DNA from: a virus
IMG/VR virus record: IMGVR_UViG_3300046009_015179
Span: 1-40,875 of that record
Strand: one strand, 5' to 3'
Length of the DNA: 40,875 bases
In this document: positions 18,879 through 39,101 of the stretch, piece by piece
Position numbering within the stretch: the first letter of the stretch is position 1
Layout: every line of letters begins with the position of its first letter
Program-made: the position numbers and the translations under genes
The notes under the pieces: model-generated
Databases searched by the model: none
What the model was told of the DNA's origin: nothing
What the model saw: the letters and a program-made list of their open reading frames with translations, nothing else

Positions 18879-19415
18879 ATGAATTTCAATGAGTTTGTTA
18901 GACTTAATGAGTCCACTGTTATCGATCTTTATAATAGTACTGTGGATGCGTTTCCTAAAACTACGAAAAGACAAAATTCCATCGATATGATAAAAATTAT
19001 TGAGATGAATTTTTTGCCTTATCTTGGAATGAGGACACTTTTCGTAAAAGGTCTAGCAAAAAATATTGGTAATCAAAAGGAATATACAACAGTTGCTTTG
19101 TTTAAAGGAATAAAATATCTAACTAAGGAATCTAAAAATTCCATTAAGTTGATTGCAAGCGATGAAAAGAAATATATTCTTGAAACTATAAAGTCAGATG
19201 TTAATGAGGTTGTCGTAAGATGTACTTGCCCTGATTTTTATTGGAGATTCAATTACTACAACTCAATTGATAAAAGCCTTTATGGAAGAAAAAGAAGTAA
19301 GTATGAGTCAAAAAGCAACGAAAGAATTGCAAATGTGAATGAATCACCCGGAATGTGCAAGCATTTGATCAAATTGATCAAATCGTTAAATGACTCTAAA
19401 ATCATGGAGGACTAA
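18879..19415 (+). CDS. SWIM-type zinc-finger protein with capsid-targeting-like leader
   Basis: A 178-residue protein starting MNFNEFVRLNESTVIDLYN; NFNEF and LNES match the shared leader and candidate cleavage site. The C-terminal half has the SWIM signature CxCxxF...CxH: VVVRCTCPDFYWRFNYY (about residues 109-125), then SPGMCKHLIKLIKSL (about 154-168). SWIM fingers bind DNA or proteins and are found in several large-phage proteins of this size. No clear SD lies before the ATG. The TAA stop shares a base with the next gene's ATG. If the leader is genuine, this zinc protein would be packed in the head and could meet the DNA early. Confidence 0.75.
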   Translation: MNFNEFVRLNESTVIDLYNSTVDAFPKTTKRQNSIDMIKIIEMNFLPYLGMRTLFVKGLAKNIGNQKEYTTVALFKGIKYLTKESKNSIKLIASDEKKYILETIKSDVNEVVVRCTCPDFYWRFNYYNSIDKSLYGRKRSKYESKSNERIANVNESPGMCKHLIKLIKSLNDSKIMED

Positions 19416-19972
19416 TGGATTATGAATACAAATCTTTTATAGATAATTTGAATTCTTTAGAAGGTATCGATATCTTCCAGAAAGAAATGGAACCTACAAC
19501 TTGGGTCTTCTTTTCTTGTGAATCAGATCATTCTATCGCCCTTTTAACGGCTTTGGTCGAAGAAATAGCAGATGATAAAATCTGCAAAATGATGAATTTA
19601 ACTCATCCAATTAATGAAGATAAACCTGCATATCAACTTGTTTTTCATCAAGATGTAGATCGATTACTGAAGTTGTTTTCATCTCGAATTAAAATGTTCG
19701 TTGAAAAAAATAAAGTTGTAGCCTATGACGAATACGGAGTTCCAGATTTATCTCTAGTCACAATCAAACAAATAGCCAAAGAGCTAAAAAATCGCAAAAA
19801 TTTGACTTTTGCCATGGTTTGGATGGAAGAAAACATTAAAGACAATATTGCAATTGAAGGAAATGGAAATCCAACACATCTTGTTGGATTATTAGCCAGA
19901 GGACTGCACATGGCAATTGAATGGTCCGATAGATACTTGAAATTCAACAAACAGGATAAGGATGATAATTAA
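19415..19972 (+). CDS. hypothetical protein coupled to the SWIM gene
   Basis: A 185-residue protein, start after GGAGG and overlapping the previous stop by one base. Mixed alpha/beta with no signal peptide. Noticeable blocks are TTWVFFSCESDHSIALLTAL (about 28-47), PAYQLVFHQDVDRLLKLF (about 71-88) and a C-terminal helix (LVGLLARGLHMAIEWSDRYL). Not recognised. The stop overlaps the convergent stop of the first MGATS paralogue by four bases. Confidence 0.65.
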   Translation: MDYEYKSFIDNLNSLEGIDIFQKEMEPTTWVFFSCESDHSIALLTALVEEIADDKICKMMNLTHPINEDKPAYQLVFHQDVDRLLKLFSSRIKMFVEKNKVVAYDEYGVPDLSLVTIKQIAKELKNRKNLTFAMVWMEENIKDNIAIEGNGNPTHLVGLLARGLHMAIEWSDRYLKFNKQDKDDN

Positions 19973-20325
19973 AAGATACCTAATTTTATAACCATCCAAG
20001 AAATTGTTGTTTTTGGCTTGCCCGTAATATAAAAACTCCAGTTGCTATTATGGGCATCTGCCTTTAAATTTGAACTAACAATTGCCACTTTATTGTTATC
20101 TTGTAAAAATACAGTATATTCATTTACAGATCCTGATGGAGCCGTAAATACAATTTCTGCATTCTCTTCTTTCAAATTCATGACACCAGCAGCTATAATT
20201 CTTGGACCCATCAAACTACTTATAGATAAAGGAACACAAGAATCATTTGAATTAGAAGAAGTAGCAGTAAGTGATGATTTTCCAACCGATCCACAACCTA
20301 TTCCAGTAACGCTTGAAGCACCCAT
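19969..20325 (-). CDS. MGATS-tag paralogue 1, short beta protein
   Basis: A 118-residue protein opening MGASSVTGIGCGSVGKSSL, the most diverged copy of the tag shared by four neighbouring genes. The body (about residues 30-118) is beta-rich: VPLSISSLMGPRIIAAG, then EIVFTAPSGSVNEYTVFLQD and NSNWSFYITGKPKTTISW. This has the look of a small trimeric virion protein, perhaps an Ig-like or decoration fold. It lacks the NGxVK block that follows the tag in the other three. GAGG precedes the ATG. The family pattern suggests that the tag anchors and the body is displayed, an inference. Confidence 0.7.
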   Translation of the reverse strand: MGASSVTGIGCGSVGKSSLTATSSNSNDSCVPLSISSLMGPRIIAAGVMNLKEENAEIVFTAPSGSVNEYTVFLQDNNKVAIVSSNLKADAHNSNWSFYITGKPKTTISWMVIKLGIF

Positions 20326-20358
20326 TTTTCACCTCTATAATATGTAAGCTTTATGAAC

Positions 20359-20398
20359 AAAAAAAGACAATGCATTTAAAACTGCATTGTCTTTTTTT
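20359..20398. terminator. bidirectional terminator between MGATS paralogues 1 and 2
   Basis: 20359-20374 (A-run then GACAATGCA) pairs with 20383-20398 (TGCATTGTC then T-run) around an eight-base loop. It lies 33 bases before the ATG of paralogue 1 on the minus strand and after paralogue 2, so it would stop transcription from paralogue 2 and let paralogue 1 be controlled separately. Confidence 0.85.
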
Positions 20399-20416
20399 TA
20401 AATTATAAAAGCAAAA

Positions 20417-20450
20417 GGTATGCGTCTTGGAGAAAACCAAGACGCATACC
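20417..20450 (-). terminator. terminator after MGATS paralogue 2
   Basis: A perfect 14-bp stem: 20417-20430 with 20437-20450, loop AGAAAA on the plus strand. On the minus strand it begins nine bases after the stop of 20460-21023 and is followed by TTTTGCTTTT. Two strong hairpins in a row (with 20359-20398) suggest full isolation of this highly structured gene. Confidence 0.75.
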
Positions 20451-20459
20451 CAATTGAAC

Positions 20460-21023
20460 TTAAGAAACTGCTGCACTGAAAGGAGTCGCTTCAGTACCGC
20501 TATTTGTAAGGAATGCCCTTACGCAGAACTGACCAGAAGCGATATCTATTATCTCAAGACTGTCGCCTTTGATGCCACCCTGAGTAGATCCATCCATTGT
20601 AATGGTATCAGTAGTCGAAGTAGTTGGCCAACCATTTGCTGGCTCACCCTCTCCGTCATCGGCAAGAGCCAAGCCAGAAATAATGTCCGTTGCATTAGCT
20701 ACTTGAATTTTGTAGCTGTTGCTAGTTACAGTGGTATTAACATAAAACTTATAAATATCACCAGTTCCAGTAGCTGCTGGAAGAGTAGCAACAACACCTG
20801 CTGCCCTAGTGAAAACCAAAGGAATTCCAGCTTTGCTTGAATCAAGAGTTATTGTCGCAACATTAAGCACGAATGGTGCTTTTGACAATGCGTTGTTGTC
20901 GAGATTAGCTGCGGTCACAGCATTTGGCTCGATGTTTACTGTTTTTACAGAACCATTGAAAACCAATGGCTTGATTTTTGATGCAGAACCTTGTCCTGTT
21001 CCTTCTGTTGATGTAGCTCCCAT
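20460..21023 (-). CDS. MGATS-tag paralogue 2, beta-rich display-type protein
   Basis: A 187-residue protein with the tag MGATSTEGTGQGSASKIKPL, then VFNGSVKTVNIEPNAVTAAN. The body (about residues 50-187) is beta-rich, Ser/Thr/Ala-rich and lacks Lys runs; a segment around VVATLPAATGTGDIYKFYVN resembles phage capsid- or fibre-surface beta domains. The end FCVRAFLTNSGTEATPF would close a beta sandwich. GGAG precedes the ATG. No signal peptide, so it is assembled inside the cell. Base composition is more GC-rich than neighbouring hypothetical genes, as for the capsid gene, suggesting strong expression. Confidence 0.75.
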   Translation of the reverse strand: MGATSTEGTGQGSASKIKPLVFNGSVKTVNIEPNAVTAANLDNNALSKAPFVLNVATITLDSSKAGIPLVFTRAAGVVATLPAATGTGDIYKFYVNTTVTSNSYKIQVANATDIISGLALADDGEGEPANGWPTTSTTDTITMDGSTQGGIKGDSLEIIDIASGQFCVRAFLTNSGTEATPFSAAVS

Positions 21024-21060
21024 AATAATCTCCTTTTATATATAAAAAAAATCAAACACA

Positions 21061-21128
21061 ATAAACTTAGCTTAACATAAAGACTAAGTTTATTTGAACG
21101 GCTTCAAGAAATTTAAAACCGTTCAAAT
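21061..21128 (-). terminator. two adjacent hairpins after MGATS paralogue 3
   Basis: ATAAACTTAG (21061-21070) pairs with CTAAGTTTAT (21084-21093). ATTTGAACGG (21092-21101) pairs with CCGTTCAAAT (21119-21128). The second stem begins seven bases after the stop of 21135-22106. Neither has a long T-run, so they may be terminators, 3' protective stems or processing sites. Confidence 0.6.
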
Positions 21129-21134
21129 ATTACA

Positions 21135-22106
21135 TTAAACAATCGCAGTTACATCCACACTCTTCCATGCACCGCCAACATAGACTTCTATGTTGCTTGT
21201 CGCTGTGTTGTAACAAAACATGCCGTTGGTTGCAGTACCAGCAGCAGCATCTCTTGCAGTATTATTTGCATATACTGGCATGATTGGCATACTTTGAATA
21301 TAAATGTGACCATTTCTACCAGAACCAGAATTAGTGCCACAAGTAAGAAACATATCGCCAGCACGATCTGTGCCAACGCTATTACCAGTAGTAATCTCGA
21401 TATCGCCACCACGACCATCAACTGTGCCATCACCAGCTTCGATACGGATGTCTCCGCCATCTACATCTGTAGTGGCTAGTGAATTGCCAGCAGTGATTTC
21501 TATGTCGCCTGCTTCTGGATAATCCTCACCCTCATTGATGCCATCTCCAGTTCCACTATCGCCAGCATGAATATGGACATGACCAGCCTCACCATCGCCA
21601 CCAGCATCGCCAGCTTCAATATTAATATCGCCACCCTCGCTGTCAGTAGTACCACTTGATCCATCGCCACCATAGATGTTTACATCGCCAGCATCGCTGT
21701 TTTCGACACTATCGGCATCACCACCTCTAATCGTTACATTTCCAGCGTTTGCATCTGGACCATTGCCGGTATCACCAGCGAATATTTCAATGTTTCCGCC
21801 TTCGCCATTACCATTAGCTTTACCAGCGTAGATGAAAACACTGCCACCATCAGCATCATCTCCGACTCCATCAGCCTCGGGAGGATCGACCGCTAACGGA
21901 TATCCATCACCTGCTTTAATGGTAATGCTGCTTGCATCATTATTGCCAGCAGTTCCATCTGCCGTGGAAATCAAAATATCCGATGTAAAGTTTTCGAAAA
22001 TTTTACCTTGTTGTATGTTTTCTTTTTTCACGACACCGTTTACGATTTTCGGTAAATATTTCTCTACCGATCCTATTCCGACACCTTCATTACTTGTAGC
22101 TCCCAT
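21135..22106 (-). CDS. MGATS-tag paralogue 3 with acidic GGDI-type beta-repeat body
   Basis: A 323-residue protein. The tag MGATSNEGVGIGSVEKYLPK leads to IVNGVVKKENIQ and a linker. About eleven imperfect repeats of 15-22 residues follow (residues about 60-265), of the form (G)G-(D/H/N)-(I/V)-x-(I/V)-x-(A/T)-G-(D/N/K), very rich in Asp, Gly and Ala. Regular one-strand-per-coil repeats of this kind build beta-helices or beta-prisms in phage fibres. The C-terminus (NGMFCYNTATSNIEVYVGGAWKSVD) matches the common phage fibre/appendage ending MxxYNTxTxxxxxYxGxAW. No Arg/Lys in most repeats, so the body is strongly acidic and might bind calcium. GGAG precedes the ATG. Confidence 0.8.
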   Translation of the reverse strand: MGATSNEGVGIGSVEKYLPKIVNGVVKKENIQQGKIFENFTSDILISTADGTAGNNDASSITIKAGDGYPLAVDPPEADGVGDDADGGSVFIYAGKANGNGEGGNIEIFAGDTGNGPDANAGNVTIRGGDADSVENSDAGDVNIYGGDGSSGTTDSEGGDINIEAGDAGGDGEAGHVHIHAGDSGTGDGINEGEDYPEAGDIEITAGNSLATTDVDGGDIRIEAGDGTVDGRGGDIEITTGNSVGTDRAGDMFLTCGTNSGSGRNGHIYIQSMPIMPVYANNTARDAAAGTATNGMFCYNTATSNIEVYVGGAWKSVDVTAIV

Positions 22107-22139
22107 AATGATCTCCTTTGTAATAAGTAGAAATTAAAA

Positions 22140-22164
22140 AACTTAGTTTTAAAAAAACCAAGTT
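22140..22164 (-). terminator. hairpin at the end of MGATS paralogue 4
   Basis: AACTTAGTTTT (from 22140) pairs with AAAACCAAGTT (to 22164) with one A-C mismatch and a short loop. It overlaps the stop codon of 22163-22930 and is followed on the minus strand by TTTTTAATTT. Weak to moderate terminator. Confidence 0.5.
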
Positions 22165-22930
22165 ACCTTGCGTACTCAGAAACTTTCAACACCGCACTGT
22201 TGGTGTTCAAGGTGAGGATGTCATCTGCTCCATCCCTCTTTGCTTGGATTTTAATGGTCAACGCAGTTGTGACAGAATTTGAAAAAACCATGGCAATGGG
22301 AAACAGTACTGCACTTCTAGTGCCACCACCTGCACTATTTGTCCATGCTTGGTTTCTCCATGTTATCTCAACATCATTTACCGTTATTCTAGATCTGAAA
22401 TTATCTGCCAAGCCTCCACCAACAGCATAAGTTGCATTATACTCAATGTACAAGGAACTGCTGTTGGATACTGGCGTGTATGAAACTGATGCAAAATCAG
22501 TATAGTCATTACTGTTGTTGGTCAATTCGCCAGCGGTGAATGTATAGAAACTCGTATTCAAGTGTTGTCCAATTGCGTCACCTCTGATGTAACCTTCAGC
22601 GGTTATATTGTTGCCAGACGAAATGTCACCATCAGCGGATATATCGCCATCTGCGGTTACATTGTTGCCAGACGAAATGTCACCATCAGCGGATATATTA
22701 TTACCAGATAAAATATCACCATCAGCGGATATATCGCCACCAGACGAAATGTCGCCATCTGCACTGATATTTGATTCGGTTGTCATATCGCCAGTTGCGT
22801 TGATGTCGTATTTCCAGTTGTGTAGAATATCGACACCGAGGTTTTCAGCTTTTACTACGCCATTTATTATAAGTGGTTTAATTTTATTTACAGAGCCTAT
22901 TCCTACACCTTCTCGACTTGTTGCACCCAT
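22163..22930 (-). CDS. MGATS-tag paralogue 4 with ISADGD repeats and beta head
   Basis: A 255-residue protein. The tag MGATSREGVGIGSVNKIKPL is followed by IINGVVKAENLG. A repeat shaft (about residues 45-112) of six-residue steps such as ISADGD, ISSGNN and ILSGNN forms a likely beta-helical or triple-beta stalk. A globular head (about 120-255) includes LYIEYNATYAVGGG, SRITVNDVEITWRNQ, LFPIAMVFSNSVTTALTIKI and a terminal VLKVSEYAR. The head pattern (even-spaced strands ending in a basic residue) resembles C1q/TNF-like jelly rolls in phage fibres. GGAG precedes the ATG. Stalk plus head is the classic layout of a receptor-binding or decoration fibre; which of these is not known. Confidence 0.78.
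   Translation of the reverse strand: MGATSREGVGIGSVNKIKPLIINGVVKAENLGVDILHNWKYDINATGDMTTESNISADGDISSGGDISADGDILSGNNISADGDISSGNNVTADGDISADGDISSGNNITAEGYIRGDAIGQHLNTSFYTFTAGELTNNSNDYTDFASVSYTPVSNSSSLYIEYNATYAVGGGLADNFRSRITVNDVEITWRNQAWTNSAGGGTRSAVLFPIAMVFSNSVTTALTIKIQAKRDGADDILTLNTNSAVLKVSEYAR
22618..22770 (-). repeat. degenerate short tandem repeats encoding the paralogue 4 stalk
   Basis: Repeated 18-36 base blocks such as GACGAAATGTCACCATCAGC followed by GGATATATCGCC (plus strand) recur at about 22617, 22674, 22723 and 22743 with small changes. They encode the ISADGD/ISSGNN steps. Blocks differ by multiples of 18 bases, so recombination between them would alter stalk length in frame. Confidence 0.8.
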
Positions 22931-23038
22931 AATAATCTCCTTGAAATTTAGGTGTATTTATCTAATAATATCTATCATTTGCATCGTAATTGTGATTAGA
23001 GCATGGAATAAATTTTGCGAAAACAGATATATACTTAT

Positions 23039-23605
23039 ATGACATATGAAGCAAGCCCAGAAACTAAATCATTTCAACAACAAATTTTGTATGGAACCAT
23101 ACTTGGTGGATCATCTATTGTCAATCCAACACATGGTAGAAATTGTTATCTTGCAATGAGAGACAATAACCTTAATTGGCTTTCATATAAAATCAATGAA
23201 TTGAAAGATTTTTTTAAGTTAGATAGCACCACTATCAAAAAAGATAAAAACACATATAGATGTTACTCTGTCGCATATCCTTGTTTCAATCAACTTTATC
23301 GATCATTCTATAAAGATGGTAAAAAAACTGTAACTAAAGAAATTTTAGAGTCTCTGAATGATCTTGCTTGGATGGTGTGGTATGTCGATAGTGGTAGGAA
23401 AAGTAAAAGAAAAGTGTATCTTAGGACACAAAAGTTCGGAGAAGAAGGTTCAAATATTATTGCAGAATATTTCAATTCTTTGGATTGCACATGCACAATA
23501 AAGAAACAAAAAGAAAGATTTGAAATAGTTTTTGATAATAAAGGCTCACAAGAATATCTCAAGACATTTTCGCATAGATTGCCAAGCTTTATGGTAAATG
23601 ATTAA
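23039..23605 (+). CDS. free-standing LAGLIDADG homing endonuclease
   Basis: A 188-residue protein from ATG 23039; a TTG at 23015 with GGA upstream is an alternative start. Two LAGLIDADG helices are visible: QQILYGTILGGSSI (about residues 13-26) and LNDLAWMVWYVDSG (about 108-121). Together they form the fold of a monomeric double-motif nuclease. The second keeps the metal-binding Asp (VDSG). In the first, the usual Asp of LGDG is Gly (LGGSS), so a catalytic acid seems lost, unless the subfamily uses another residue. It lies in its own space beside the MGATS array, not inside a recognisable intron. It would promote its own spread, and perhaps exchange of neighbouring fibre genes. Confidence 0.8.
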   Translation: MTYEASPETKSFQQQILYGTILGGSSIVNPTHGRNCYLAMRDNNLNWLSYKINELKDFFKLDSTTIKKDKNTYRCYSVAYPCFNQLYRSFYKDGKKTVTKEILESLNDLAWMVWYVDSGRKSKRKVYLRTQKFGEEGSNIIAEYFNSLDCTCTIKKQKERFEIVFDNKGSQEYLKTFSHRLPSFMVND

Positions 23606-28306: not shown

Positions 28307-29446
28307 TTATTTAGTTTTTTTTCTTATCTTTTCGATAAAAGATCTCATATTTTTTTCATTATAAACATGACCAAATAAATTGATTTCTGTCCAAACCTCA
28401 AACGATATACCAAGTTCTTTTGCTTTTATTTTAGCAGCATTGATTTTACATATGACAACTTCATCACTTAACCATTTCTCTGGTTTTACTTCGACTAATT
28501 TTTTTGATTCATCTTTATATTCTATTAAGATATCAATGATGTAGGAGGAGGTTATTTCTTTTATTGGATTAAAATATTCAACTTCAATTTTTTCTACAAA
28601 ATAATTTTTTACAAAATCGTCTTCGTCTAATTTTAAATATGCTTTCTTCTCATAGGACGATCTATAAAATACTCTTCCAGCTTTTGAAGATTCATGCCAG
28701 CCACTCAAATGATGAAGTTTTGGATCAAAACCTTTTTTGTATTGTGCGACAGTAGCTTTTGAAATATTCTCTTTATGCTCTCTGGTGAACCCTCCAGTTT
28801 CTTCAAGCATTTTCTTTCTGCCTTCTGAAATATTTTGGCAATGCTCTTCAGAAAATTCTTTTCCCATGTGGGATTCAGACATTTTTTGTTTTGTTTCTTC
28901 GGAATGAACTTTTCCTAACATTCCATTAATGCAATGATTTTCGATAATATTTTTTGTTGCTCTGGCTATACCTTCTGGATTATTTTTCATGTAATTACTT
29001 AGTTTTTTCTTAAACTCTTCGCTACGCTTGATTCCAGTAAGACTCATGCGAATTTTTTCTTTTTGTTCTTCGCTAATTTCTTTTCCTAATTGAATGCAAC
29101 TTTTACAAAGCTGTAAATACGGTTCTTGTAATGAACCATAATAATTGCGTTTTTTCATTTGACGGCAATGATTTCCATCGTGTTTTGGATGAGGACAATA
29201 AACATTAACAATTTCTTCTGTTTGTCGATTTTCTCCAACTTTGTTTACTGGATTGTTGTGATGCATATAACATTTTCTGCAGATAAAACTTTCGCCATCA
29301 TTTTTTAATATGTTTCTTTTGGCTGGTTGCTTTCCAATGATAATAATTTCATCTTTTGGTTCGTGTTGTGGATGATCACAATTTATCTCAATCTTTTCTA
29401 TATCTTTAAATGTTATATACTTAAATTTAAATTCTTCTATATTCAT
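28307..29446 (-). CDS. homing endonuclease: zinc fingers, NUMOD3 repeats, PD-(D/E)XK nuclease domain
   Basis: A 379-residue modular nuclease. N-terminal cysteine/histidine pairs (CDHPQH, CRKCYMHH, CPHPKHDGNHC, CKSC; residues about 23-117) form zinc modules. Four NUMOD3-like DNA-binding repeats follow (about 130-230), with GIKRSEEFKKKLS, GKVHSEETKQKMS and GKEFSEEHCQNIS clearest. The C-terminal domain has Glu266 (SSYEKKAY), Asp305 (YIIDILI) and Glu319-x-Lys321 (LVEVKPEKW), the PD-(D/E)XK active site in a TnsA-like arrangement. AAGGAG precedes the ATG. It stands just downstream of the capsid gene terminator, a typical site for a free-standing homing gene targeting a conserved head gene. Confidence 0.85.
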   Translation of the reverse strand: MNIEEFKFKYITFKDIEKIEINCDHPQHEPKDEIIIIGKQPAKRNILKNDGESFICRKCYMHHNNPVNKVGENRQTEEIVNVYCPHPKHDGNHCRQMKKRNYYGSLQEPYLQLCKSCIQLGKEISEEQKEKIRMSLTGIKRSEEFKKKLSNYMKNNPEGIARATKNIIENHCINGMLGKVHSEETKQKMSESHMGKEFSEEHCQNISEGRKKMLEETGGFTREHKENISKATVAQYKKGFDPKLHHLSGWHESSKAGRVFYRSSYEKKAYLKLDEDDFVKNYFVEKIEVEYFNPIKEITSSYIIDILIEYKDESKKLVEVKPEKWLSDEVVICKINAAKIKAKELGISFEVWTEINLFGHVYNEKNMRSFIEKIRKKTK

Positions 29447-29603: not shown

Positions 29604-31034
29604 TTAAATAATAAAGTTAGCAATCGACATTCTTGCGTAGAATTTAGCACCTTCCCTTAACAATTTTTTTCCGTATCTTGTCAAAATACCTTTTCTGGGG
29701 CAAAAGCTCTCTGGATCGAGAACAACAGGTGTCTGAGTAAGAGGAACATAAGGGCAGTAGAAATATCCTGAGTCAAGATATGAATCGCCTTTATAGCCCA
29801 TAAGGATTTGATTGCTTTGGAACAATGGATCTTTATATAATCTCCAACGATTGTTCACAGTTCCGACATACTGGATGCCAAGGGAGCTAGTGAATGTTTC
29901 GCTAGGAGCAGGAGCGAAACCAGCGGTTGCGGTTTCGAAGATCGAAGCAACTTCGGGAGATGTAACGATGAAGTTAGCACCACCACGAAGGGTCTTACGA
30001 TGAATAACGGAGGAAATTTCAACGATCTTCACATAGAGAGATTCGTATTTTTCCTTGATGGTATCACCTAAGGAGGTGTTGAAGTCCCAAGCGGTTACAG
30101 TACCAGCATTTTGACGGAGGTCGGTGAGGACTTCACGATCAATTTCAAGATTAATTTCTTGAGCAAGAACTGCGGTCAATTCGGCTTCAGCGTCCAAGTT
30201 GTGTTGCGAACGAAGATCTTGTTGAGCTTCATAAGACCATACAGCCTTCAACTTACGGGTCTTGGCGGTAATATCTTCAGATTCAACAACGAGGTTGATT
30301 TCTGGAAGGTCTTGATTACATTCAAGATTAGATTCGTAGCTCATTACTACGCTATTTGCACCGGGATCGCTATCCCAAGTCAATGTCAATGCACCACTGG
30401 TCAAATCAATTGTGCCAGTAGATACAGCGGGTGAAGGTGAGCCAATTTCAGTTTTATTGAATGTGCCACCAGCACTAAAATTGAATGTATATACTGCTGT
30501 AGCACCATCATAGATAGTACCAGTAATAGTACCAGCCAAAATTGGTCCTCGTTCAAGTGTGAAGTTGGAAGTGGTATCGCCACCTGCATCTACTAGTCTC
30601 TCGTTTTGAACGAACTGGTGAGAATAGAAGATATCAAGGTTTGCAGTACCATCAGCCTTCTGCATCAAGGAGTTTGCGTCATCACCGGGGAAGCCGCCAT
30701 TATTATCTGCACCACGGGTAGCACCCTTATTGGATGAATAGCGGAAGCGGAGATAATAAACAAGACCAGTAGGTCCAAGCAAAGGCTGGACGGATACGAT
30801 CTTATTAGCGATCAACTGTGGGTAAATCCTACGAACCAATGGTATGGAGATTCGTTTGAATTGTGCGATGTCAGCGGTGTCGGTAGACACTTCGTTGATA
30901 AGGCGTTGGTTTTCGAGAAGAACTGCTGTGGCTGCACGAGTATTACGGTCTTCGATTCCATTGAGGAGACCAGTTTTAGCCCAGCGTCCTTCTAACTCTT
31001 TAGCTTCATTTAAAAATCTAGCATTAGCGTTCAT
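29604..31034 (-). CDS. major capsid protein, T4 gp23-like
   Basis: A 476-residue T4-type HK97-fold capsid protein. Family marks are IPLVRRIYPQLIANKIVSVQ (about residues 66-85) and PLLGPTGLVYYLRFRY (about 86-101), the gp23 P-domain entry. A long insertion (about 130-230) and ETFTSSLGIQYVGTVNNRW come later. MGYKGDSYLDSGYFYCPYVP, RYGKKL and a short C-terminus complete it. T4 gp23 loses 65 residues to the prohead protease; here LINE/V (about residue 51) or FLNE/A (residue 10) are candidate cut sites. AAAGGAAA precedes the ATG. Base composition is richer in G/C than neighbours, as expected for the most expressed gene. Confidence 0.95.
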   Translation of the reverse strand: MNANARFLNEAKELEGRWAKTGLLNGIEDRNTRAATAVLLENQRLINEVSTDTADIAQFKRISIPLVRRIYPQLIANKIVSVQPLLGPTGLVYYLRFRYSSNKGATRGADNNGGFPGDDANSLMQKADGTANLDIFYSHQFVQNERLVDAGGDTTSNFTLERGPILAGTITGTIYDGATAVYTFNFSAGGTFNKTEIGSPSPAVSTGTIDLTSGALTLTWDSDPGANSVVMSYESNLECNQDLPEINLVVESEDITAKTRKLKAVWSYEAQQDLRSQHNLDAEAELTAVLAQEINLEIDREVLTDLRQNAGTVTAWDFNTSLGDTIKEKYESLYVKIVEISSVIHRKTLRGGANFIVTSPEVASIFETATAGFAPAPSETFTSSLGIQYVGTVNNRWRLYKDPLFQSNQILMGYKGDSYLDSGYFYCPYVPLTQTPVVLDPESFCPRKGILTRYGKKLLREGAKFYARMSIANFII

Positions 31035-35330: not shown

Positions 35331-38300
35331 TTAACTCATTGTGCTATCATCACGATCTTCATGATCTTGTTCTATTCCATAATTTATAATTTCAAGATTG
35401 TACTTTTTCAAATCATTTTCTTCAGCATCTGGAATTTCATCTGTTGCTGTTGTTGGAGGTTCGCCTTCTGGCGGTGGTGTAGTTTCGCCTTCTGCTGGCG
35501 GTGGTGTAGTTTCGCCTTCTGCTGGCGGTGGAGCTTCTGCACCAAGATCTGGAGTTGGACCACCAGCTTCAGACCCTATTTCTTTTCCTGCTTCTTCTGG
35601 AGTAGGAACACCAACACCTAGCAATTGAGGATTTTGAGACATAATCTGAATTTTTAGATCTTCTAATTTTTGCAATTTAAGTCTGCTCAACATCATAGAT
35701 GTATCTTCTTCTGAATACATTAAAACTTTTGTATAAATGTCATAATCTGACATTAACAAACCACTTTTTAAAGAACCTGCATTTGTAAGTCTTGCTGTTT
35801 TTACTTCGGCTCTTGATAATTCTCTCCAATCTGATGGTGGAGTCATACGAATTTTTAAATCTTTAAACATTTCTTGTGGAAATCCACGAAGTTCAAGATG
35901 TCTTTCGCATATATCTAAAATTCCATCTTCAAAATTCGATTGAAGTCTTTCGATCATTCTTGCGAACTTAACATCTTGTGCTGATAATGTAATTCTAGTT
36001 GCATTAACATCTTCACTTGAAAAATAACTTTTTGGAAAGTTCAATGAAACAAATAATTTATTTCTAAAATAAACAGCATCATCAATTTCTCCAAGGTTTT
36101 GTGCGCCCGGAAGAGTTTCAATTCTACTATTTGCATTTGGACGAACTGGAACCCAATAGTCTTCATCTTGTGCTGGTGGTTGCCATCTTTCTTCTACAAG
36201 GTTTGCACCTGTTGTTGCACGATTACCAGCAGTTTTTCTTTTACGAAATTGATCTTTTAATCTTTCCATAAAAGCTTCTGCTTTAAATGGTGGAAGTTGA
36301 CCGACATCTATATAAAACACTCGTCTCTCGGGCGCACGAGTATTATGGGTCGGTATGCCATTGGCTATGAAATTATGAAGTTCATTTTCAACTGTAATAT
36401 CAAAAACTTCTTCTTTTCCTACATGTTCTACAGATATTACATTTTCATATTTCGGCAATTCATTTTCAGATATTGTCACAGAATAAGAAATAGTTGACGG
36501 CATCTTTCTATTTTTTTCTATGATATGACCACATTTACGATGTCTAGTTTTAAGTTTTCCAGAACACAATCCAATTGAAGACCAAATTTCCTTGATATCT
36601 TCAATCAATTTTTGATTACACAATTCAATTGTAGAAAACCATGTTCCCTTTTTTGTTGTTCTTTCACATCCATCTGCATTACAAATTCCTTCGACAAATG
36701 CTTTTCTAATATTTTTCGATGCTGTGTGAACCCAATCAGGAATTCTTTTGTTTTTAGCTCCATGGATATATCCCAAAGTGATAAAAGTTTTACAAGCTAT
36801 TCTAGAATCGACTACATATTTACCTAGTTGTTTATGCTTGCTTCTAGTTTCTTTTTCAAATCTCACTTTTCCAAAATATTTTTTCAATAAATTTGCATAG
36901 AATTTATTTTGTCTATCATCCATGCCAGCAGTAAAGTTTAACTGGCATTTATTCTTACTCATTGATCCATCGCCAATCAGAAATCCAAAAAGACGAGCAA
37001 AATCTTCATCTACATATTTTGGTAAATCAATTCTTTCTTCATTGTACTGACCTTTACTTACAACAATTAAATTGTCAGGATTAATTTCAAATTTGTCACA
37101 TATTTCCAAAGCTTTTTCATATGGCAAAGCCTTTCCTTTAGAATACAAAAACTGTTTGACTCTATCCGCTTTAGTGCTACACAATCTCATGATTTGAGAT
37201 TTATTTGCGTAGGTATTATTACGGAATGATTTTCTTTGGGAATCACTTATCTTTGCCCATTTAGTTCCAAATATTTTTGGGATCTCAACTTCTTTATCAT
37301 TATTCCTTTGAACATTTATAATCATATCATGTTTTGGAATTAAGTTTTGAATATCAACATATTGAATAATTCCGTTTCTGTTAACCAGAATTGGATGGGT
37401 TGCTGTTCCTGTAATTTCCACATGTTTTGTCTTAACTTTATAAACATCTTTAATTCCATTGTTCATAAAGTTTATAACATTGGTAATTATAGTGTTGTTA
37501 GATTGATCATAAGAATAAACTTGATCATTTATTTGTAAGTCCTTGATGTATTTATAGCTATTTTCGGTTCTAATTCTTGTATTTCCAACAAGACACAGGC
37601 GATATACCACCATTGCATCTTCCATAAGTCTTAATTGATGTGCTGGTCCTCTGGCTGGTTCGATAAGAGATTGTCCGTAAGGATAGAAATTTCTTCGATC
37701 ATCTCCAATTCTCATATGCAAAATTTGGGATGGTGCAAATCTTATTGCTGTAGATTGGGATAATTCTGCATCACTTTGTTGTGATACATCTCCTCTTGCC
37801 AATGCTTGATAGTCTGGACCTTCTTTTGATTGTTGGAATTCAATTAATTTTCCTTTAATTGTTTCGATTCGATACATTGTCTCTGGTGGCAAAGGTATAA
37901 TTTTATAGATACCCTCAGCTGGTTTATCTGGATTTATAACTATTTCGAAAAATTTGTCACCATGAACAATCATATCTTTGAAGTACACATAACCATATCT
38001 GTTAAGATTTAACATTTTTCGATGAAGAAGCAAAAATTCAATTTCTTTTCTAACTTCGTCATTTTTGCATTCAATAGTCATAATATTCCCTGCATCATTC
38101 TTTTGGCAATTATGAAGGATTACAGAGTCTGTTGCAAAGCACAAATGTTTCTCAACTGATATATCATAAACATCCATTTCTGGACCTTCGGCTACACTAA
38201 CAACCTTTCTTACCGTTGCTCTCCTGTGCAATTTTCTAATTTCTTTTAGTGTGAATCCATTCTTTTGAATCATACTATCGATAGTATTCCAATCATGTTC

Positions 38301-39101
38301 CATTATTTTGGCGATTTGTCTTACTGGAATGTCGCTTCCAATTAGTCTGCAAGCTCTATTTAACTTTTCATATTCGGGAGTTATTTTGCCACTTTTCCAA
38401 TCATCTACAAATTGTCGTTCATGAATCCATCCTTTATCAAATGAAAATATTCTTGGAAATTGATTCACTCTAAGATTTGTTAAATTTTGATTGGCTGGAA
38501 TACGATAAAATGGCATTAATTCATCGCCAAATTCAAGTTCTCCGCAAGGAATCCATTCGCCATTTCGTTTTAAAATGCGATGATCTGGTGTTGCGTATAT
38601 GATTTTTCCATCATCTAGAACAACTTCAACAGTTTTGGCTTTCTTTACAAGTCTTGGAGCAAATGCCCATCCAAGTGTGTAATCTCTTTTTTCTAAGTTG
38701 TAGCAATAAACTAAAAATCTTTCATTAGCTTTGTTTTTTGTGAGCCATTCTATAGTTTGGTAGCCATGTGGAGTTGCAATCAATGTATCTCCGCTGACGC
38801 ATGCTTCATCAGCGAATACGGTCATAGCCATTTCAATTTCTGGTAAATTTCTTAGTCTTTCGTATTCTTTATATCTTGAAGATCGATTACCAAGTGTGGT
38901 AGTATCGATCATATCATAGGTTTGACGAAGGTTGATGTAATTACTTGGACCTTGTCCAGCAACTAATTCGCCGCCAGTTTGCAAAGCATCAGCCTGAGAA
39001 ATCCCTGCACCAGAAAATTTAGAAGAATCTTTTCTTTTTGCTAGTGGGTCTTTTTCTGTGGCGTATGTAAATAGCTTAAAAAAATCTGACCAAAGTGTCA
39101 T
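35331..39101 (-). CDS. portal protein (T4 gp20-like) interrupted by two inteins
   Basis: A 1256-residue precursor. After removal of intein 1 (residues 101-331) and intein 2 (503-920) a 607-residue portal remains, comparable with T4 gp20 (524). Exteins show FADEA-CQKNDAGNI at the first junction, MIVHGDKFFEIVIN, SQILHMRIGDDRRNFYPYG, and VVYRL-TRAPERRVFYIDVG at the second, the most conserved portal block. ERWQPPAQDEDYWVPVR and the clip/crown region follow. The C-terminus is a Pro/Glu/Gly linker with two identical AEGETTPPP units (about 1208-1226). GAGGAA precedes the ATG. The portal forms the dodecameric DNA gate and nucleates prohead assembly, so full splicing is needed for infectious particles. 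Confidence 0.95.
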   Translation of the reverse strand: MTLWSDFFKLFTYATEKDPLAKRKDSSKFSGAGISQADALQTGGELVAGQGPSNYINLRQTYDMIDTTTLGNRSSRYKEYERLRNLPEIEMAMTVFADEACVSGDTLIATPHGYQTIEWLTKNKANERFLVYCYNLEKRDYTLGWAFAPRLVKKAKTVEVVLDDGKIIYATPDHRILKRNGEWIPCGELEFGDELMPFYRIPANQNLTNLRVNQFPRIFSFDKGWIHERQFVDDWKSGKITPEYEKLNRACRLIGSDIPVRQIAKIMEHDWNTIDSMIQKNGFTLKEIRKLHRRATVRKVVSVAEGPEMDVYDISVEKHLCFATDSVILHNCQKNDAGNIMTIECKNDEVRKEIEFLLLHRKMLNLNRYGYVYFKDMIVHGDKFFEIVINPDKPAEGIYKIIPLPPETMYRIETIKGKLIEFQQSKEGPDYQALARGDVSQQSDAELSQSTAIRFAPSQILHMRIGDDRRNFYPYGQSLIEPARGPAHQLRLMEDAMVVYRLCLVGNTRIRTENSYKYIKDLQINDQVYSYDQSNNTIITNVINFMNNGIKDVYKVKTKHVEITGTATHPILVNRNGIIQYVDIQNLIPKHDMIINVQRNNDKEVEIPKIFGTKWAKISDSQRKSFRNNTYANKSQIMRLCSTKADRVKQFLYSKGKALPYEKALEICDKFEINPDNLIVVSKGQYNEERIDLPKYVDEDFARLFGFLIGDGSMSKNKCQLNFTAGMDDRQNKFYANLLKKYFGKVRFEKETRSKHKQLGKYVVDSRIACKTFITLGYIHGAKNKRIPDWVHTASKNIRKAFVEGICNADGCERTTKKGTWFSTIELCNQKLIEDIKEIWSSIGLCSGKLKTRHRKCGHIIEKNRKMPSTISYSVTISENELPKYENVISVEHVGKEEVFDITVENELHNFIANGIPTHNTRAPERRVFYIDVGQLPPFKAEAFMERLKDQFRKRKTAGNRATTGANLVEERWQPPAQDEDYWVPVRPNANSRIETLPGAQNLGEIDDAVYFRNKLFVSLNFPKSYFSSEDVNATRITLSAQDVKFARMIERLQSNFEDGILDICERHLELRGFPQEMFKDLKIRMTPPSDWRELSRAEVKTARLTNAGSLKSGLLMSDYDIYTKVLMYSEEDTSMMLSRLKLQKLEDLKIQIMSQNPQLLGVGVPTPEEAGKEIGSEAGGPTPDLGAEAPPPAEGETTPPPAEGETTPPPEGEPPTTATDEIPDAEENDLKKYNLEIINYGIEQDHEDRDDSTMS
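36342..37595 (-). mobile_element. intein 2 in the portal gene (418 residues, LAGLIDADG type)
   Basis: Begins at Cys503 (CLVGNTRIRTENS) and ends at Asn920 (IANGIPTHN), with Thr921 as the +1 residue. Block B is TGTATHPIL (564-572). The endonuclease domain has both LAGLIDADG helices, LFGFLIGDG (704-712) and FVEGICNADG (802-811), each with its metal-binding Asp, so homing activity is plausible. It splits the conserved VVYRL/TRAPERR motif of the portal, a site under strong constraint where imprecise loss would be lethal. Confidence 0.95.
38109..38801 (-). mobile_element. intein 1 in the portal gene (231 residues, no LAGLIDADG)
   Basis: Begins at Cys101 (CVSGDTLIATPHG, block A) and ends at His330-Asn331 (SVILHN, block G), with Cys332 as the +1 residue. 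Block B is IYATPDHRIL (168-177) and block F is VYDISVEKHLCFAT. The normal endonuclease place (about 203-294) holds no LAGLIDADG motif. Instead it has a predicted helix-turn-helix (about 254-283, DIPVRQIAKIMEHDWNTIDS), a DNA-binding remnant or a different homing module. Splicing residues look intact. Confidence 0.92.

Follow-up and report, generated by a model that had tools for sequence, protein, structure and literature searches.

A phage gene array with a shared 14-residue N-terminal tag and exchangeable bodies, paired with a LAGLIDADG protein that lacks its catalytic aspartates

The window analysed here is the whole 40,875-nucleotide (nt) stretch of the viral record IMGVR_UViG_3300046009_015179. 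It contains a tandem array of four genes, read from the minus strand, whose products begin with the same short N-terminal tag and continue with different bodies. Gene 1, the first of the array, is divergent from a gene for a LAGLIDADG_2 protein that has lost both catalytic aspartates. The four open reading frames (ORFs) had been delineated in a first-pass annotation made from the sequence of the window, and they are confirmed here with lengths of 118, 187, 323 and 255 amino acids (aa) (Table 1). Homologues were searched for in viral contigs.

The tag and the array genes

The tag consensus in the four array proteins is MGA(T/S)S-x-x-G-x-G-x-G-S-(A/V), and the residues M1, G2, A3, S5, G8, G10, G12, S13 and K16 are identical in all four of them in the alignment. 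The likeness is not a product of chance, since the 255-aa protein used as a query against the window matches two of its paralogues via their N-termini (E values of 2e-8 and 1e-7) and the tag recurs in many other contigs. The shared start MGA(T/S)SxxGxGxGS described in the first-pass annotation is thereby borne out. A second element described there, NGxVKxxN(I/L), is indeed seen in three of the four proteins but does not belong to the universal tag: over 76 aligned tag proteins the information content is concentrated in residues 1-14, and residues 19-31 (PxxxNGxVKxxNI) are confined to one tag subclass. The latter resemble an initial repeat unit of a fibre stalk, and L030 continues the repeat as SAVTTEKLNDAAVTNVKIADQAVT. 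In a second subclass roughly RG(F/Y)xLxx(I/M)xKV takes the place of NGxVKxxNI and is followed by long fibre-like bodies; examples are L148 (656-1705), L103 (499-1590), L059, L080 and L052, some of them near the gene for the gp23-type major capsid protein and some far from it. Concerted evolution of the tags within genomes was tested on DNA and found no support (same-genome 0.669 versus cross-genome 0.653, P 0.22).

All three spacers between the array genes hold hairpins followed by U-runs. The earlier statement that hairpins separate the genes therefore stands for every spacer, although only two of the three are strong and the third is a short stem with a weak fold score (Table 1). The hairpin unit CTTAGTCTTTATGTTAAGCTAAG, located upstream of gene 3 in the window, recurs beside the LAGLIDADG gene in L119 (record G049), where it is placed between the LAGLIDADG and tag genes as if genes 1 and 2 had been excised.

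Table 1 Positions of the array genes, their tags and spacers, and neighbouring features in the window
Feature	Position	Strand	Remarks
Tag gene 1 (255 aa)	22163..22930	-	Tag, ISADGD/bactofilin-like stalk, beta-rich head; body family 3
Tag gene 2 (323 aa)	21135..22106	-	Tag, acidic GGDI repeats, fibre-type C-terminus; body family 2
Tag gene 3 (187 aa)	20460..21023	-	Tag and stalk motif, capsid-spike / T4 gp9-gp10-like body; body family 1
Tag gene 4 (118 aa)	19969..20325	-	Tag and small beta domain like tailspike C-terminal domains; body family 0
Tag residues 1-14 of gene 1	22889..22930	-	From alignment
Tag residues 1-14 of gene 2	22065..22106	-	From alignment
Tag residues 1-14 of gene 3	20982..21023	-	From alignment
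Tag residues 1-14 of gene 4	20284..20325	-	From alignment
Two hairpins (20359-20398, 20417-20450), then T-runs	20359..20450	.	Spacer of genes 4 and 3; fold z -12.8
Two hairpins	21060..21129	.	Spacer of genes 3 and 2; fold z -7.0
Short hairpin and T-run after gene 1 (weak)	22142..22164	-	From sequence; z -0.95 for the 56-nt spacer
18-bp motif TTTCGCAAAATTTATTCC	23005..23022	-	Divergent intergenic region; candidate operator or promoter element
LAGLIDADG_2 protein without catalytic aspartates	23039..23605	+	Conserved start MTY at 23039; TTG start at 23015 possible
SWIM-like neighbour	18879..19415	+	CxC...CxH spacing (by eye); conserved; convergent with array
Conserved neighbour ORFX	19415..19972	+	In G018 immediately ahead of the LAGLIDADG gene, without an intervening array
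gp23-type major capsid protein	29604..31034	-	Same strand as array

Bodies behind the tag and their exchange

The tag is found on 78 proteins from about 60 uncultivated contigs and the 595-kb metagenomic phage LR756511, which carries two tag genes. After removal of incomplete proteins, an all-against-all comparison of the region behind residue 32 divides these 78 proteins into 11 body families, family 0 being the commonest. A tag profile was positive in all 50 records that were re-searched, with up to six tag genes in a row. Sequence searches of PHROGs, Pfam and the PDB did not return the tag family, and tblastn gave no convincing tag in named isolate phages; matches in S-CAM7 (E value of 3, internal to a DprA-like protein) and in Vibrio phage 1.244.A (E value of 8) were judged to be chance. 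No published account of this tag was found in a literature search that did not extend to subscription journals.

The bodies of the array are structurally diverse, and their description in the first-pass annotation as including a GGDI repeat and an ISADGD stalk is accurate. Pfam gives a Bactofilin match in the product of gene 1 that lies below the cut-off (2.4e-4). In AlphaFold monomer models built on shallow alignments (31 and 19 rows), the tag has a predicted local distance difference test (pLDDT) score of 38-46 and the bodies score about 90. The family-1 body of the 187-aa protein resembles the capsid spike of phage Pa223 (9ny6; Foldseek E value of 6.6e-5; VIA Z score of 11.0 and root-mean-square deviation (rmsd) of 2.2 over 98 residues), and is also near T4 gp9 and CBA120 TSP4 (Z scores of 8.8-9.6) as well as T4 gp10 domains. 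An untagged 145-aa homologue of family 1 (49% identity, 1e-24) is encoded by the Rhizobium phages RHph_Y25 and RHph_I1_23, where its gene lies directly 3' of the major capsid gene. Likeness to a known capsid surface protein holds for this one of the four array bodies. The family-0 body of the 118-aa protein shows a weak but consistent likeness to tailspike C-terminal domains: its Foldseek search gave no match below 0.001, and the likeness comes from a second structural comparison, with the C-terminus of the Pam1 tailspike (Z score of 8.7, rmsd of 2.0 Å over 67 residues), and from weak profile matches (Pam1 at an E value of 0.015; Pfam K1-lyase_C in 4 of 31 family members). In L080 the body is collagen-like (PF01391 at 5.8e-41).

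As judged from the sequences, the bodies do swap behind the tag. The window and record G008 are 94% identical over positions 20437-22119, the core of the array, as against 72-76% in the flanking genes, and in 200-bp bins the identity passes from 0.6-0.79 to 0.89-1.00 and back. The edges of this segment lie in the region of the terminator hairpins and at the gene 2 ribosome site. Assembly chimeras are an unlikely source of this mosaicism because the G008 array is repeated in G009, a different record, and the window array in L001 and L002. The family-2 gene also stands alone in other contexts: gene 2 recurs at 85% identity in G002 and 78% in G010, in fetched regions that are otherwise dissimilar. 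In L095 the 187-aa body (68% identical) follows a tag class and first 21 residues that are those of a different family (17/21). The search of related phages for the tag in front of other bodies, which yielded 11 body families and mosaic array segments, together with the L095 chimera agrees with the first-pass proposal of a common element with exchangeable bodies, and the likeness of the bodies to surface display modules fits it as well.

The LAGLIDADG protein and the capsid gene neighbourhood

LAGLIDADG_2 (PF03161) is the sole domain found in the protein encoded beside the array (Pfam, 1.3e-29, residues 23-177 of 196). Both catalytic aspartates are replaced in all 33 proteins of this array-side type, the window included, the motifs being of LGG/LGN/LGK/LGT/MGA type and of DSG/DAG/DKG/DCG type, whereas LGD and DDG are intact in the LAGLIDADG_2 proteins encoded at other sites of these records (6 of 6). 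In a tree, 30 distinct array-side proteins cluster together, separate from three active ones. The type is kept across deep divergence. The pairing with the array is conserved as well: in 28 of the 32 records with the array-side type the first tag gene is divergent from it within about 0.5 kb. In LR756508, where no tag was found, the only LAGLIDADG copy bears LGD and lies inside a large ORF. A role as a group I intron maturase was rejected, there being no Rfam match to such an intron in the window.

The divergent intergenic region holds the 18-bp motif TTTCGCAAAATTTATTCC. It emerged from a motif search confined to non-coding DNA and has no other exact match within the window. In 12 related records the motif occurs exactly once per record, always in the spacer that parts the array from the LAGLIDADG gene. 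The sole match in G018, which has no array at its LAGLIDADG gene, is at an unrelated place. The motif is taken to be non-coding because the possible reading frame differs between relatives. By analogy with WhiA, the LAGLIDADG protein is probably a domesticated regulator that binds DNA of the shared promoter region. No published inactive LAGLIDADG regulator from a phage was found, again in a search without subscription journals.

The order of a 101-aa gene, the SWIM-like gene, ORFX, the tag array on the opposite strand and the LAGLIDADG_2 gene is conserved. In G014 and G018 (L154 and L153) the LAGLIDADG gene abuts the SWIM or the ORFX gene, so that both represent natural empty array sites. The two records keep tag genes elsewhere and nest among the bearers of the array in the tree, which suggests that the array was lost at least twice.

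The array is 6.7-11 kb from the gp23 gene in the window. Among records of at least 60 kb with gp23 the median distance from gp23 to the nearest tag gene is 12.6 kb (P of about 0.01 versus random placement), and several single tag genes are only 2-5 kb from it. The gp23 of the window shares 78% identity with its LR756511 counterpart and no more than 36% with those of isolates, and the window is therefore probably part of a very large phage genome. Two further ORFs on this side of the array contain homing-endonuclease sequences. The T4-type portal gene (gp20, 35331-39101, minus strand) is a 1256-aa ORF carrying an in-frame intein with splicing and homing-endonuclease domains (PF14890, PF05204). 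The ORF at 28307-29446 (minus strand), between the array and gp23, combines a NUMOD3 homing-endonuclease-like part with a C-terminal head-closure / TnsA-like nuclease domain and is probably a fusion or an inserted endonuclease.

Proposed mechanism, rival explanations and known systems

It is proposed that the 14-residue tag is a flexible peptide by which different beta-rich proteins, probably trimeric, would dock at one conserved site of the virion, most likely on the gp23-type capsid shell. The bodies would then be interchangeable display modules (tailspike-type, capsid-spike/gp9-like, GGDI fibre, and stalk with head, with a collagen-like fibre in relatives) that probably bind host or environmental glycans. 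Complete cassettes, in which every gene brings a ribosome site, a tag and a terminator hairpin of its own, would be gained, lost and swapped, presumably through recombination where 5' ends and hairpins are shared, and the array would be controlled at its shared promoter region by the divergently paired LAGLIDADG protein stripped of its nuclease residues. The probability of this joint reading, from docking tag and display bodies to cassette swapping and LAGLIDADG regulator, is put at roughly 0.6. Capsid docking of the tag is plausible, and the capsid is favoured over the tail because of the capsid-spike match, the gene order in the Rhizobium phages and the position near gp23. A broader version, in which giant phages possess a dedicated display system with a universal 14-residue peptide for docking on the capsid, a swappable array offering no fewer than 11 body types and an endonuclease disarmed into a promoter-specific regulator before these phages diverged, is tentative, and the odds are somewhat against it.

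Several observations weigh against the proposal. The invariance of the tag is partly a search artefact, because pattern searches demanded parts of it; divergent forms such as MAATT and MGATSVTGIYNNGAG were recovered by profile search. The low pLDDT of the tag comes from monomer models on shallow alignments and is no proof of disorder. The similarities of family 0 are weak at the sequence level, some genomes have tag genes elsewhere, up to about 120 kb from gp23, and the intergenic motif can be recognised in no more than a single clade. Furthermore, family 1 is also baseplate-like and family 0 tailspike-like, which makes a location on the tail possible. Docking on a tail structure, either the baseplate or a gp10-like fibre hub, would follow the logic proposed for Klebsiella and Ackermannviridae phages, in which peptides dock on a T4gp10-like domain (PMC6872550), and it would suit the resemblance of family 1 to T4 gp9/gp10 and CBA120 TSP4 and of family 0 to tailspike C-termini. 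It is nevertheless considered unlikely, since a capsid spike gives the best match, the untagged homologue is encoded right behind a major capsid gene and single tag genes lie close to gp23. Family 1 is also an improbable general hub because many genomes have only family 0 at the array locus. Its gp9/gp10-like body, which is itself tagged and absent from many loci, would be a candidate for a T4gp10-like docking domain in an anchored protein of the phage.

Alternatively, the tag could work as the T4 capsid targeting sequence does and send the proteins into the head, to be packed there and ejected. T4-type head proteases cut at the motif (I/L)xE. The tag lacks this motif, its sole glutamate, Glu7, being present in 25 of 76 proteins and in the wrong context, and the bodies look like exterior spikes, fibres and collagen. 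These points make internalisation quite improbable, even though in the T4 internal proteins, too, a conserved N-terminal targeting sequence is all that highly diverse bodies have in common (PMC3012670). Far less credible still is the suggestion of the first-pass annotation that the adjacent homing endonuclease could promote exchange. The strength of the LAGLIDADG_2 match and the position of the gene beside the exchanged region would fit an active free-standing enzyme, but exchange driven by a protein without catalytic residues is not supported: both aspartates are gone throughout the array-side type and kept in the other copies of the same records, Rfam detects no group I intron in the window, and the protein is retained in a conserved neighbourhood across deep divergence. 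There is hardly any likelihood that the conserved 5' end acts at the level of translation or mRNA rather than as a protein docking signal. Each gene opens with it and has a similar AAGGAGATTATT ribosome site, which would allow this, but codon third positions are only 29-64% identical among the four tag sequences and the invariant Gly8, Gly10 and Gly12 use all four glycine codons across the family, so the conservation is at the protein level.

Uncultivated giant phages would thus have a recognisable system of surface display, in which the tag lets display proteins without known body homologues be found. If the tag binds the shell, it could serve directly as a peptide anchor for display on particles. 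The conversion of a selfish nuclease into a regulator, as proposed for the disarmed LAGLIDADG protein, would be unusual in a phage.

By analogy, the tag seems to act in the manner of the peptides found on branched receptor-binding proteins and of the N-terminal arms of decoration proteins. In the branched systems N-terminal peptides as short as seven residues precede different bodies, with a T4gp10-like domain as the proposed dock (PMC6872550). These proteins (KP32, KP34, K1E/K1-5, Menlow and phiK64-1 groups) share with the tag array a short conserved N-terminus, exchangeable bodies, genes side by side and, probably, a function at the phage surface. They differ in that their bodies are depolymerases, whereas those behind the tag are small beta domains, capsid-spike-like domains, and GGDI or collagen fibres; the tag sequence is also different, its locus lies in the head-gene region and one tag serves 11 families. 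Decoration proteins and head fibres (T4 Hoc, T5 pb10, SPP1 gp12, phi29 gp8.5, phage L Dec, P74-26 gp87) have in common with the tag proteins a probable surface display, a flexible N-terminal arm, collagen-like and carbohydrate-binding types and apparent dispensability. The N-arm of a decoration protein is disordered until bound to the capsid (PMC7602432). In the literature found on decoration proteins and head fibres there is no description of a shared docking tag over a row of different bodies. The T4 internal proteins resemble the array in placing one short N-terminal tag before diverse bodies, but they reside inside the head and are cut by the head protease, for which the array tag has no cleavage motif. 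The LAGLIDADG protein finds its nearest parallel in WhiA, a domesticated LAGLIDADG transcription factor (PMC3781837), as both retain the scaffold without a nuclease role. WhiA, however, is a bacterial DNA-binding regulator with an added C-terminal helix-turn-helix domain, whereas the array-side protein is a 188-aa phage protein consisting of LAGLIDADG_2 alone, with a predicted role in regulation.

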